A stretch of DNA of 64,000 nucleotides from contig NC_134515.1 of the NCBI RefSeq assembly GCF_027942865.1, positions 6,566,839 through 6,630,838 on the forward strand. The letters are read 5' to 3'. Of the stretch, positions 14,864 to 62,893 are shown piece after piece. Under the pieces are notes generated by a model that did not search any database, was not told the DNA's origin, and saw nothing but the letters and a program-made list of their open reading frames with translations. The position numbers and the translations under genes were made by a program. Source of the stretch: Odontesthes bonariensis. Its lineage: Eukaryota > Chordata > Actinopteri > Atheriniformes > Atherinopsidae. The stretch's first letter is position 1. Each line of letters begins with the position of its first letter.

Positions 14864-15258
14864 GAATAACAGTGCGGCTGCACGGTGGTGTGGTGGTTAG
14901 CACCGTCGCCTCACAGCAAGAAGGTTCCAGGTTCAACACCCAGCTGGGGCCTTTCTGTGTGGAGTTTGCATGTTCTCCCCGTGTATGCGTGGGTTCTCTC
15001 CGGGTACTCCGGCTTCCTCCCACTGTCCAAAAAATCATGCATGATAGGTTGATTGGCATCTCTAAATTGTCCTTAGGAGTGAGTGTGCATGGTTGTTTGT
15101 CTCGTTTGTCTCTATATGGCCCTGCGATGGACTGGCGGCCTGTCCAGGGTGTACCCCGCCTCTCGCCCATTGACTGCTGAGATAGGCTCCAGCCCGCCCG
15201 CAACCCGATCGACGGATTCAGCGGTATAGATAATGGATGGATGGATGGAATAACAGTG
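14864..15258 (+). mobile_element. ATGG-tailed tRNA-related SINE, full length
   Basis: An exact 11-bp duplication GAATAACAGTG (14864-14874 and 15248-15258) brackets a 373-bp element. The head contains a pol III A-box-like GGTGTGGTGGTTAGCACC and a B-box-like GGTTCAACACC. The body has the GGAGTTTGCATGTTCTCCCC and GGCGGCCTGTCCAGGGTGTA segments common in fish genomes, and the tail is (ATGG)n. The same family recurs at 32853-33206 and 47287-47405 (both reversed) and, more degenerate, at 54138-54416 and about 30311-30385. The reverse strand has a 195-codon open frame through it that is not a gene. Confidence 0.85.
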
Positions 15259-32852: not shown

Positions 32853-33206
32853 CATATTTATTTCCATCCATCCATTTTCTATACCCGCTGAATCTGTCGG
32901 TCGGGTCGCGAGGGGGCTGGAGCCTATCCCAGCGGTCATCGGGCGAAAGGCAGGGTACACCCTGGACAGGTTGCCACGGTGACAAACAACCACACGCACA
33001 CTCCTAAGGACAATTTTAGAGACACCAATTAACCTAACATGCATGTTTTTTTTGGACAGTGGGAGGAAGCCAGAACCCACGCATATACGGGGAGAACATG
33101 CAAACTCCACACAGAAAGGCCCCAGCTGAGAGTTGAACCTGGAACCCTCTTGCTGTGAGGCGACGGGGCTGACCACCACACCACCGTGCAGCCGCATATC
33201 TATTTC
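32853..33206 (-). mobile_element. ATGG-tailed tRNA-related SINE, reversed copy
   Basis: Near-full 330-bp copy of the family at 14864-15258 in the opposite orientation. It starts on the + strand with the complement of the tail (CCATCCATCC) and ends with the complement of the head. A 12-bp duplication with one mismatch (CATATTTATTTC at 32853, CATATCTATTTC at 33195) flanks it. A 130-codon open frame on the reverse strand is only the repeat body. Confidence 0.85.
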
Positions 33207-35020
33207 ATTTAACAAAATATTTTATGGGTAAAATCTAGGTCTACTTTCTTTTTTGGTCACAGTAGAGCTTACTACATGTGTCTCGGTTGCTTTTAAAACA
33301 CAAATCAAATGATCATTGACATCTCGATAATGGACACATTATACTATATCTATCTTAATGAAATTAAATCTATGCTTATAAAGCTTTTATATTAAATGTT
33401 CATGTGAACTAGTATTTTACATGGTAGTTTACAAATGTTTGCAGAGACAGTAAAGAGCACAAATAAATACATTCCATTGTTCTTATTTGTGCCAAGTCAT
33501 TAACATGTACAACCCTCGGGTGAACAGCTTTCAGGAATACCCAAGTAAAGTGTCTGTCAGGGTGGCCTCCCAATCAATTCTCCCATCACACCTACTTAAT
33601 CACATAATCCAGGCTTTGATAAGTGCCGATTAGGAGGGAAAACTACCCTAAAAGGTCAGTCTGCATCCATGGATGAGACATACGTCTGCAAGAGTGTGCA
33701 TCGCATACAGAGGCCCAACAATGTGGAAGGCACACAGTTAATCTGTCTCTGGCTGGGGAGCAGTGCCCTCAGACCTGAGGTGCATGATTGGGGTAAGTCA
33801 TGAAGCACAAACCATCAAGGGATCCCATTAAATCAACATACACTGTGCATTTAGCTATTTTACCCAAAAATCAGCTAATTCCATGGGATCCTTCCAGTCA
33901 CAAGCAGTCAACATGCTGCCACTCATCAGGACAGAGCAGAACTGAGGCGTCCCTCAGGGTAGAGCTGAAGGTTTAGGAGTTCTTTATTCATGCACACTTC
34001 ATCGGTGGCTTAAGCTGTATCTCATTGGTGCCACTACAGCTTTAGTATGAGGTTTTTCCACTATCTCTTTCCCTTTAGGGATAATAAGATTGCTGTGACT
34101 TGATGAGGGTCATTAGTTTGTCTAGCTGTCTTTCGTGGACTGGGGCTAACTGTACATTTTAGCACAGTTATGCTTACGTCATTCTTTTGGGAAATAGACA
34201 TTTAAGAGTAGGGGTTTTGAGTTTTTACATCTTGCCCTCTTATTATGCCCCCCCCCCCCCCCCCCAATTCAGATGAAAAATGCTAATAAATGGAAGCCGT
34301 ATCACTATGAATACCCAGACTAACATCCCAATTCAAACCTTTTGCTGGAGTCTGAAAGAATACAAGGTAGATGCAGTCACCACCTGACCCGCCCACGGGC
34401 AATGTGTGTCAGATATGTGAGCAGACAAGCTGCTCCTAAAATGTATTATTTAATAGAAAGGTTATGGTTGAAGCTTCAAAGATGCATTGTATGAGCCATA
34501 TGAGGCGTGGGCGTGACTTCAGAACTCGGCAAAGGTCTTCCAACTCCTAAGGATGTAATTTTAAAATCAGTATGAAAGTCAGAGAAAACTGCAGCAGCCT
34601 CTGGCCAGAATGACTGCAATCTCTCTTAGAATAGAATAACAAGGAAGTTACAGCATTTCTCTTTTTTTTTTTACTGGAGTTTAGTTGCATAAAGATGTGT
34701 AGTTCAAAAAAAAAAAACTCAAATACACAATAGTTTCACTAAACAAGATCTTTAGTTGTGGTTAAAAAAAAAAACAACCCAAAACAATACAGTGAATTGT
34801 ACAGTTTGAATCCATCAACCATCCATGCTGAGAAAAATAATTTGCTGTTTAAAATAAAATTATACACACTGGATCCATGATTCCAGTGAGAAATTATGCT
34901 AAAAATGTAGAAAAACAAAAAAATATTGAAGCAAAATGACAACAGGCAAAAAATGAAAGTTAATTTCAGGAAGCAGTGCTTCCTTTTTTTTTTTCTCTAA
35001 AGTCTTTGACGACACTGAGC
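33207..35020. other. Downstream flank of zgpat
   Basis: No gene recognised. The stretch 33530-33860 is more balanced in composition than its neighbours but has no open coding pattern. An 18-C homopolymer lies at 34248-34265. The zgpat 3' UTR must begin just below 35021; its poly(A) site was not determined. Confidence 0.45.
34248..34265. repeat. Poly-C tract (18 C)
   Basis: Uninterrupted run of about 18 C residues; the length may be affected by sequencing or assembly. Confidence 0.85.
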
Positions 35021-38000
35021 TTAAAACTCTGTCATCTTCTTGTGTGTGTCAGCCTTCCTGTTCTCTCTCTGGATGGACAGCTCCTGTGCTTTCTGCTGGG
35101 CCAGCAGGCAGCGAGCCGCAGACAGCTTCTCCTCCAGCTGCTTCACTCTGGATGCATCCCTTTAAACACAAAAAACAAAGAGATTTGGAGGAGGAGAGCG
35201 ATGACGAGTCAAATCTGTTTTATCTGTCTGCCCAGTTCAGAGAGGATTGGTGGTGGAAACACGAGTGTAAGCTAAAATTTTTACACCTACTTTACATTTT
35301 CACTTCAGTTGTCATTTGTGAATTCGAATGAATCATCATTTTACTTGAATGGAAAATTACATTTCTTCCAATTAACAATAATTATAGTTGTGTAAGCAAT
35401 GCATTGATGCAGTAGTTATCCAATGGTTGCTAATGGGTCTATACTTAAAGTGATAGTCCGGAGTAGATTCAACCTGGGGTCATTTGAACCGTGATATCCA
35501 GCCAAGTAGCCCACCCGCAGTTTTTGCGATATTGGCTGAACATCAGCTGAGTTACAGAGTTATCCCGAATAGCTTAGTACAAGCGCTAATGGACCCTAGC
35601 AGTATCTCCAAAATTACCACACTAAAATCACATGCCATGACACCAAACTTCTACAGTAGTACAAATATGGTCTGTACTCACAAAACGATGCATTTGGAAG
35701 TTTGAAAATAGTCCAGGAGTTTATTATTATCAACACAAGCCTGATAGCTTCTCTGCTGCTAAAGCTGCGTCAACGTCACTTCTGGGAGCTTCAAAGTAAG
35801 ATGAGGGTTGATCTACTACTGTAGACAACAAAGTATATGCTATATTCTACATGTTTTTTTATGAATTTTTATGTTGTAGAGTTGTGAATTTATTTTATCA
35901 ATGGAGAAATTGAGCAGCCTTGCTTTGTTGTCTACAGTAGTAGATCAACCCTCATCTTACTTTGAAGCTCCCAGCTCCCAGAAGTGACGTCGACGCAGCT
36001 TTAGCAGCAGAGAAGCTATCAGGCTTGTGTTGATAATAATAAACTCCTGGACTATTTTCATACTTCCAAATGCATCGTTTTGTGAGTACAGACCATATTT
36101 GTACTACTGTAGAAGTTTGGTGTCATGGCATGTGATTTTAGTGTGGTAATTTTGGAGATACTGCCAGGATCCATTAACCCTTGTAAAAGCTATTCGGGAT
36201 AACTCAGTAACTCAGCTGATGTTCAGCCAATATCGAAAAAACTGCGGGTGGGCTACTTGGCTGGATATCACGGTTCAAATGACCCCAGGTTGAATCTACT
36301 CCGGACTATCACTTTAAGCTAAAGATTAGAGCCGCTGCTAAAAAGCCATAGAAGTGATTCAGAGATTAAACTAAATTGCAATTACCTAGTTTCCAATGAT
36401 CATTTATGATTAGTTCCATGCCTTAAAGGAGAAGTTCGTATTTTTAAACCTGGACCTTATTTGTGTCATAAAATACGTTCATCTACTCACCGATAACAGT
36501 TTGGTGAAAGTCGGCGTCCTTCGGAAGATATTTAGATTACTGTACTCAAGATCGGCGTATATCCATATAATGGGAGAGAACAGGGCAGAGACAATACAGC
36601 CTCTAAATACGACATTATCTGTCTTCATTTCACCAATACTTTAAGACCACTGAATGAATGAACGTGTACTATTGCACTGTTAGCTCATAGCTGCCGTGTT
36701 GTTGTTATCCAGGGCTATCGGGGGGCTTACAGGAAGCTTTCTACACACACGTCTAGTGGGATGACTTCATCGACGTGCGCCGCTGCAGCACAGCTCATTC
36801 ACTCCGTAAACTGTGACAGTCGGCTAACTGCACAAGGACTTTGCTGCTGCTAGTAGCAACATGACAGGATATGACAGGATATTTATCAGATTTAGAAAAA
36901 TGTGGACGACGACTTTGAGTACGATGGACGTCCTTACCGGAGTGAATGAGCTGTGCTGCAGCGGCGCGTGTCGATGACGTCATCCCACTAGACGTGTGTG
37001 TAGAAAGCCCCCCGATAGCCCCGGATAACAACAACATGGCAGCTATGAGCTAACAGTGCAATAGTACGCGTTCATTCATTAATTCGTCTTAAAGTATTGG
37101 TGAAATAAAGACAGATAACGTCGTATTTAGAGGCTGTATAGTCTCCGCCCTGTTCTCTCCCGTTATATGGATATACGCTGATCTCCAGTGATCTAAATAT
37201 CTTCCAAAGGACGCTGCCTTTCACCAAACTGTTATCGGTGAGTAGATGAACGTATTTTATGCCAGAAATAAGGTCCAGGTTTAAAAAAAAAAACAAAAAC
37301 TTCCCCTTTAATCGAAGTAAAATCAGAGATAAATGCATAATAATTTAAGAACTTATTCTGAACCCCGTACTGACCTGCCTGCCTGTCTATTGAGTAACTT
37401 GCTGAGTTGCTGGATCTCCCTCTCAGTCTGGGACACCCTTTCAGCAGCCTGGAACTGCTTCACATTCAAACTCCTCTTGGTGCTTTTTCCTCCTCTGTAA
37501 GCCTCCAAACTAGTTGCTGCCAATGCAGCAGAGGCACCACCTTCAGCAGGATCAGAGCTTCTGTCTCCAAGCTGGTGGTTTAGAAAGTCAAAGACGGTAC
37601 GGCGCCCTCCGGTGGCGACTCTGGGCTTTCTGCGCCGCTTTGGACGGCCGGTTTGTGCACCGTCCTTGGTTGCCTTGCTCCGGGTGCGCTTCTGGGTGAA
37701 CTGTGCACACTCGTCCAGAGACTTGCCTTGCGGTAGGACCACTGCCATCACCGGCTCTACTCGACCCTCCAGCAGCTTTCCTAAGCCTGAGAAAACAAAA
37801 GAGATCGTGTGACCAAGGGGAACATATTGCATTGTAGTTTGTGCATCTACACACAGTACACTAGACAGAAGGATTTCTACACCGACAGCCGAAACAATGA
37901 GTTTGCCTTCATTCTTGAAGTTATTCCTTCTAAATATTTGTATTTAGATTGTGATCCAGGGGTACATCCTCTTTGTGATCCAGCCTCTTTAATGTTGTAT

Positions 38001-62249: not shown

Positions 62250-62893
62250 CTACAGTCAGTAGGGTTACATGGCACTGAAAGGATCAGATAATTGGCTAAA
62301 TTACAAAAAGATTGAGTTATTAAGTGCATGTAGACACCTTAATCTGACAAGAAATTGGATCGGATCGGGTTACTCGCGATCGGATTAAGACCCCGAGATA
62401 ACTCGGTTGAAAGTCAAAAGAAACCTGCTTGTAGACGGTGAAGCTCGTGGTGAATTAGACTTTGCGTTCTGCGCATGCTCCAGATTTTTTTCCCGGGGTC
62501 GTGACCCGGAAGTCGGAAGAGACGATATTACTGTTGTAGTTGCGTCGGAAAGAAAAACAGCGCAATTGAGATTGCGCTGTTGTGCATCACGTTTGTGCAA
62601 TAAGCAGCTCATCACAAACGAAATATAGAGGGACGTAGTTTCATCTTGCTCTTCATTCGCCATTTTCTCGAATGCCTGAGTTTGGTGTTGAAGGGGTCAA
62701 CTGGAAGTGTCTCTATTAGCAATAGTTGAAATGGGTACAGCGCCACCTATCGTATCGGAGTTTGACACGCTTTGTGCCTCTGATCCGATTCATTCACTGC
62801 CATATATCCAAGGATAATTACCCTTTCTCAACTCATTATTGTAATTTAGCCAACTATCTGATCCTTTCAGTGCCATGTAACCCAACTGTGTTA
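62250..62893. mobile_element. Terminal-inverted-repeat element with GGGTTACATGGCAC ends
   Basis: Left 62262-62306 and right 62839-62883 are inverted copies of about 45 bp (GGGTTACATGGCACTGAAAG...), with weaker matching for some 10 bp further out. The interior (62440-62670) is GC-richer than its surroundings, contains a CCGGAAGT motif and, on the reverse strand, an ATG at 62663 opening about 90 codons. It could be the 5' part of an autonomous DNA transposon whose body was lost. The target duplication was not identified, so the superfamily is unassigned. Confidence 0.65.

Follow-up and report, generated by a model that had tools for sequence, protein, structure and literature searches.

Kolobok transposons and the T2-MITEs of Xenopus are among the described systems closest to the elements considered here. 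According to the available parts of two reports (PMC9587614, PMC6004289), Kolobok elements duplicate a TTAA target and have 5'-RR..YY-3' ends, T2-MITEs carry an AGGRR terminal motif, and high-copy non-autonomous elements occur alongside THAP/DDE Kolobok genes; for the TTAA/AGGRR features, PMC6004289 cites the work of Izsvak et al. 1999 on Angel. The Angel elements of teleosts are, by their description in the accessible part of PMC3636048, DNA transposons found in high copy number in fish, with long inverted repeats able to fold as RNA. The foldback element Tetris of Drosophila virilis also has long inverted arms, which are related to 220-bp satellite repeats, and the TIR-220 repeats were possibly homogenised (available text of PMC4079207). 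In the Midas cichlid, goldentouch combines a long inverted transposon with a position in the last intron of a gene; it consists of a duplicated piggyBac of 8.2 kb, has a stem of 4.1 kb, and is polymorphic and accompanied by an expression difference (available text of PMC8758764).

The window analysed here is a stretch of 64,000 nucleotides (C15:6566839-6630838) of the 945-Mb genome of Odontesthes bonariensis, and the last intron of a zgpat-like gene within it contains two elements, A and B. Like Kolobok and T2-MITEs, they are high-copy non-autonomous elements with a TTAA duplication and 5'-RR..YY-3' ends (AGGRR in B only), in a genome with candidate THAP/DDE Kolobok genes; unlike in those, a single inverted repeat, interrupted by a short loop, makes up almost all of A and of B. 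Copy number and foldable arms recall Angel, and arm length recalls Tetris, although no satellite array of the Tetris kind was seen in the A/B region. As in goldentouch, a fish gene hosts the insertion in its last intron, but size and family differ. Our main reading, to which we assign a probability of roughly 0.86, is that A and B entered the intron in two independent cut-and-paste events, as palindromic Kolobok (T2-MITE)-type MITEs, which would have been multiplied in trans and had their arms copied.

Two palindromic elements in the last zgpat intron

The minus-strand exons beside the intron translate to a zgpat-like protein, and a TTI1 gene lies on the other side. The name zgpat is presumptive, recognised in the exon translations; the G-patch match of the protein reaches 20.4 bits, slightly under the 22.0 cut-off. 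Coordinates and arm lengths proposed by the sequence-only reading were recovered (Table 1): A and B, of 865 and 881 bp without the TTAAs and 873 and 889 bp with both, are separated by 105 bp and occupy about 79% of the intron. The last intron of this fish zgpat is mostly two different palindromic DNA transposon copies, apparently inserted separately, and as elements both are of an ordinary, routine kind. Foldback elements have tandem repeats inside their inverted arms; a direct-repeat search of 35000-37600 found no tandem repeats, only four short two-copy families. Elsewhere in the window, a third inverted-repeat element occupies 62257-62888, with arms of 53 bp (94% complementary) and 526 bp between them.

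Table 1. Features of the last zgpat intron (window positions)
Feature	Position	Strand	Basis or remark
Last zgpat intron	35160..37374	minus	2215 bp; donor GT 37374-37373 and acceptor AG 35161-35160, from sequence; flanking exon translations
Element A with its two TTAAs; palindromic non-autonomous transposon	35445..36317		Sequence, inverted-repeat and genome search
Left TTAA, target duplication of A	35445..35448		TTAA at both ends in 37/39 other copies
Left arm of A, start AGTGATAGTCCGG	35449..35833	+	Family consensus arms, 395/395 pairs complementary
Loop of A, 89 bp	35834..35922		Found in 40/40 aligned sequences
Right arm of A	35923..36313	-	Inverted-repeat search; consensus arms
Right TTAA, target duplication of A	36314..36317		Same 37/39 copies
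Element B with its two TTAAs; palindromic non-autonomous transposon	36423..37311		Sequence, inverted-repeat and genome search
Left TTAA, target duplication of B	36423..36426		Sequence
Left arm of B, start AGGAGAAGTTCG (AGGRR motif)	36427..36806	+	Inverted-repeat search; consensus arms
Loop of B	36807..36937		Consensus loop with AACATGG start and 25-codon frame that is disrupted in the window copy
Right arm of B, element end CTTCCCCT	36938..37307	-	Inverted-repeat search; consensus arms
Right TTAA, target duplication of B	37308..37311		Sequence

Ungapped segments of the A arms are 97-100% complementary in the window copy (arm mismatch 2.3%) and the family consensus is a perfect inverted repeat; for B the segments are 91-92% complementary (mismatch 6.9%) and 370/372 consensus pairs match. 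A genome search with the combined query gave 5,089 first-look candidates, the best 40 of which comprise the window copy and 39 other places 95-98% identical to A. The A-end pattern has 659 forward and 667 reverse matches genome-wide, 1,326 in all against 0 for the backward control; half of these ends gives a lower bound of about 663 copies. Searched alone, B returned 2,607 first-look candidates, the full-length copies among the best 40 being 82-88% like it. From these, 39 copies of A and 20 of B were fetched for alignment. Copies of A diverge from their consensus by a median of 1.6%, the value also found for the window copy, and those of B by 6.5%, with the window copy of B at 6.3%. By this measure family A appears young and numerous; since the sample consists of the 39 best-scoring copies, the whole family may be older than it looks.

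Size variants of A occur as well: L094-L096 have insertions, that of L094 enclosing a putatively HARBI1-like frame, and L097 has a deletion. A 30-bp remnant of the family, L062 (C2:8275066-8275095), has only two 11-bp ends between TTAAs within a frame that is presumably Tc1-like; it probably arose by deletion of almost the whole palindrome. In B, the 25-codon frame of the consensus loop is perhaps the start of a parent-element gene. Its 25 residues match no Pfam model and, among the fetched loci, give only weak, chance-level matches beyond B copies; it is a conjecture that B represents the 5' end of a coding Kolobok in inverted form.

The TTAA target duplication expected in other copies was borne out. 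Besides the 37 A copies flanked by TTAA at both ends, L002 differs at its right end and L020 is bordered by TTCA at each end, which shows these four bases to be target sequence that was duplicated. Among B copies, TTAA stands on both sides of the aligned boundary in 8/20 and not in the other 12, many of which are truncated or shifted. Single-TTAA empty sites were found for an A copy, L038, and none for the zgpat intron. L038 lies within a LINE reading frame. Joining its flanks gives a sequence with 36 genomic matches, of which 13 run uninterrupted across the full 303 bases at 97-99% identity, and seven of the eight empty sites fetched have a single TTAA, the eighth being missed by the search string. 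At one TTAA of a LINE family, three different TTAAAG elements occupy the LINE copies L038, L071 (seen at both ends) and L073 (seen at its right end only). The joined flanks of another A copy, L010, show no additional TTAA where the alignment crosses the site, and are 73-75% like a short dispersed repeat that forms an inverted pair in the window at 14873-15250 and 32863-33196 (segments 86-95% alike).

Matched changes in the two arms

Every aligned sequence, 40 of A and 21 of B, keeps its family's loop, and each family thus probably derives from one palindrome. Because a mutation hits a single arm, it would be expected to remain there unless the arms exchange sequence. Within the arms, double changes at mirror positions are far more frequent than on control pairs whose partners were slid by 1-15 positions: 89 of 15,703 cells in A as against a slid mean of 4.7 (maximum 8.0), and 110 of 7,290 in B as against 32.3 (maximum 45.0). 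Leaving out CpG, 83 remain in A (slid mean 3.7) and 61 in B (16.4, maximum 27.3). Watson-Crick pairing is preserved in 84/89 and 86/110 of these double changes, compared with means of 35.8 (maximum 50) and 43.7 (maximum 56) when the right-arm columns were shuffled 200 times. Variants present in both arms of at least two copies number 15 in A and 14 in B, the slid means being 0.35 and 1.8. These observations suggest that one arm has at times been copied onto the other. Against this, 13 variants of A and 26 of B occur in one arm of at least three copies without any two-arm carrier, so that such copying would be incomplete.

Some non-CpG changes in both arms are private to one sampled copy. Two of these belong to A, where the slid mean is 0.05 and the maximum 1, and eight to B (1.3, maximum 4), alongside 100 and 240 private one-arm changes, respectively. 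Position 7 of A was also followed in 34 elements whose ends could be paired by eye among the matches listed (6 of them among the fetched loci, 2 of these in the alignment): seven are C/C, 21 T/T and six mixed (Fisher p 0.002). Three copies picked by eye, L028, L031 and L053, were then subjected to genome-wide word searches. For the A copy L028, the exact 24-mer holding two linked changes has no match in the genome beyond that copy's two arms. Allowing one mismatch adds 12 places, eight with the first change, four with the second and none with both; no mirror-image partner of these 12 was found among the matches listed, a search that would overlook a partner arm carrying one more change. What is private to L028 is only the combination of two changes, each of which occurs alone elsewhere. 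The three-change word of the B copy L053 is likewise confined to its own two arms, and the change in L031, being found at five places, one arm each, is not private, which counts against arm copying.

Loss of sister copies, or an extra mutation within the word, could also lie behind apparently private two-arm changes. As exact words miss further-changed relatives, this weakens the case in B, at 6.5% divergence, more than in A, at 1.6%. The simplest reading is nevertheless arm-to-arm copying, which in at least some cases would have followed insertion. That it continues after insertion by hairpin or cruciform repair, producing matched changes without RNA selection, is a tentative proposal which we hold at just short of even odds. 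Among the titles and abstract openings listed in literature searches, none concerns concerted arm evolution in MITEs; conversion between LTRs is described in the available text of PMC8605555.

The strongest competitor, itself improbable in our judgement, is that selection on RNA hairpins or on transposase-binding ends, instead of DNA copying, kept the matched changes. In the accessible part of PMC3636048, matched substitutions in zebrafish Angel arms within two lncRNAs are interpreted as evidence of selected RNA structure, and two of the A sites (7 and 12) lie within the terminal repeat. The signal in A and B, however, is spread along the arms, in two families, and in copies chosen by similarity irrespective of transcription. 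Since copies were counted without regard to transcription, DNA-level copying should be excluded before RNA selection is deduced from changes of this kind. A slightly weaker contender is an artefact of assembly or polishing, in which reads of one arm correct the other. Inverted repeats are indeed difficult to polish, but many one-arm differences persist in the very same copies, L028 included (339 one-arm cells in A), and some variants recur in both arms across many copies.

Kolobok affinity and independence of the two insertions

Both window elements, and the complete ends of their copies, have AG..CT termini that agree with the 5'-RR..YY-3' pattern. The AGGRR motif is present in B (AGGAG/AGGGG) and not in A, which starts with AGTGA or AGCGA, while the A consensus end AGTGATACT equals the first nine bases of a Xenopus Kolobok end listed in the available text of PMC9587614/PMC6004289. 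A search of the genome for THAP domains gave 1,545 first-look candidates, of which the best 150 were scored and the surroundings of 10 fetched. One element, at C13:26766386-26771758 (5,373 bp, its right end placed by sequence), is bounded by TTAA-AG; it contains a THAP exon and a frame of 620 aa arranged as D..D..DLWH. This frame matches seven places at 93-100%, itself included, five of them nearly full length and four of these stop-free; with remoter relatives there are 77 matches (71 of 336 candidates scored). No Pfam model passes for the frame, RVT_3 (15.7 bits) and MULE (15.8 bits) both remaining below their cut-offs, and we label it Kolobok-like from the THAP exon, the layout judged by eye and the TTAA-AG ends. 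On these features, the genome appears to contain open THAP/DDE Kolobok-like genes.

A further group, here called h, was found at seven distinct places (L083, L087-L092), each with a THAP exon. Four of the seven start with TTAAAGC[A/G]ACACTCCGG and three with variants, and 17 of the first 18 bases are identical between h and A ends. Longer stretches were obtained for L088, L089 and L091 (as L100-L102, respectively), and two of the three contain elements of 1.19 and 1.44 kb whose inverted ends span some 250 bp; no recognisable catalytic frame was found in these stretches. TTAA elements of about 1.2-1.4 kb with a THAP exon between inverted ends of about 250 bp are seen in L101 and L102, and also in L083, L087, L088, L090 and L092. 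A THAP-only protein from such elements might compete with a transposase.

An autonomous element with the ends of A or B was sought and none was found in the genome. The search for an A end joined to a different inner sequence yielded three rows from two sites, the C2 remnant and a 2.8-kb element on C27 with frames of up to 228 aa. A 150-aa frame beside the THAP exon in L083 was discarded as a partner gene of A, as it belongs to another transposon nested there; this 150-aa version has no Pfam match, and the 789 first-look candidates accordingly belong to that nested element. The nested element (L098:900-2715 and L099:923-3101, in L083/L086) has ends TTGAGAATGAGGAGT, TA on each side and an open 186-aa frame, and is itself high-copy, the best 150 of the 789 candidates being 73-100% alike and mostly above 90%.

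Are the two neighbours causally linked? The sequence-only reading described a shared design with unrelated sequence, and raised the ideas of one transposase mobilising two families or of a nested preference for this spot. That description stands in part: the ends of A and B show no significant similarity (score 4.5, equalled by 39/220 internal control windows), but both elements start with TTAAAG and end AG..CT. These common features, with the TTAA target and the long arms, would fit a single transposase or an intron hot spot. So would the end comparisons, in which eight of 28 pairs fall below p 0.02, uncorrected for the 28 tests: among them are A-h, A-C27 and h-L073 (0.001 each) and B-L073 (0.003), of which A-h, h-L073 and B-L073 would allow a distant common end family. 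Against a link stand the direct A-B comparison, the fourfold difference in median divergence between the families, and a chance expectation of about 0.4 A-B pairs within 105 bp across the genome, an estimate using about 663 A copies (a lower bound), 2,607 B first-look candidates and 945 Mb. We consequently give little credence to linked insertion; one transposase for both is disfavoured by the ends and the divergence, and a preference for this spot is unnecessary. The unequal arm mismatch of the window copies supports two separate events, and the pair reads as two separate insertions for which neither a shared transposase nor a hot spot would be needed.

We infer both the transposase that would have moved A and B and the route of repair. 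The founder of each family would have been one almost perfect inverted repeat with arms of about 380-395 bp and a loop of 89 or 124 bp, which a THAP/DDE Kolobok transposase would have multiplied in trans by acting on the AG..CT ends. In the intervals between transpositions, or afterwards, one arm would at times overwrite the other at the DNA level, by conversion or hairpin repair. A member of the older family, B, and one of the younger, A, would have entered two TTAA sites of the zgpat intron.

Consequences for zgpat and for palindromic transposons

The near-perfect hairpins anticipated in the pre-mRNA were confirmed as predicted folds. As zgpat-strand RNA, A is predicted to fold at -734 kcal/mol (mean of 20 shuffles -217, z -107) and B at -644 kcal/mol (mean of 20 shuffles -233, z -45). 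The sequence-only reading further proposed ADAR editing, small RNAs or altered splicing as possible outcomes of such hairpins. For zgpat, the likeliest consequence would be none or a slight one, as the hairpins would lie in a spliced-out intron. It is very unlikely, in our view, that the double hairpin was recruited to regulate zgpat splicing or expression: the cichlid goldentouch repeat does go with an expression 2.4 times lower, but its stems are approximately tenfold longer than the A/B arms (available text of PMC8758764), and the window copies have diverged about as much as their family medians, with no sign of preservation. The least probable alternative of all is that A and B are piggyBac-type MITEs, a superfamily that also targets TTAA but whose ends read CC[C/T]T (available text of PMC2872659) and not AG..CT.

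If arm copying is true, it would help account for the survival of long, perfect palindromes as families of transposons. It would also provide a DNA-level null model for paired substitutions in transposon hairpins within RNAs, including those interpreted as selected structure in PMC3636048, and the presence of two numerous families in one assembly would make the evolution of such arms directly measurable.
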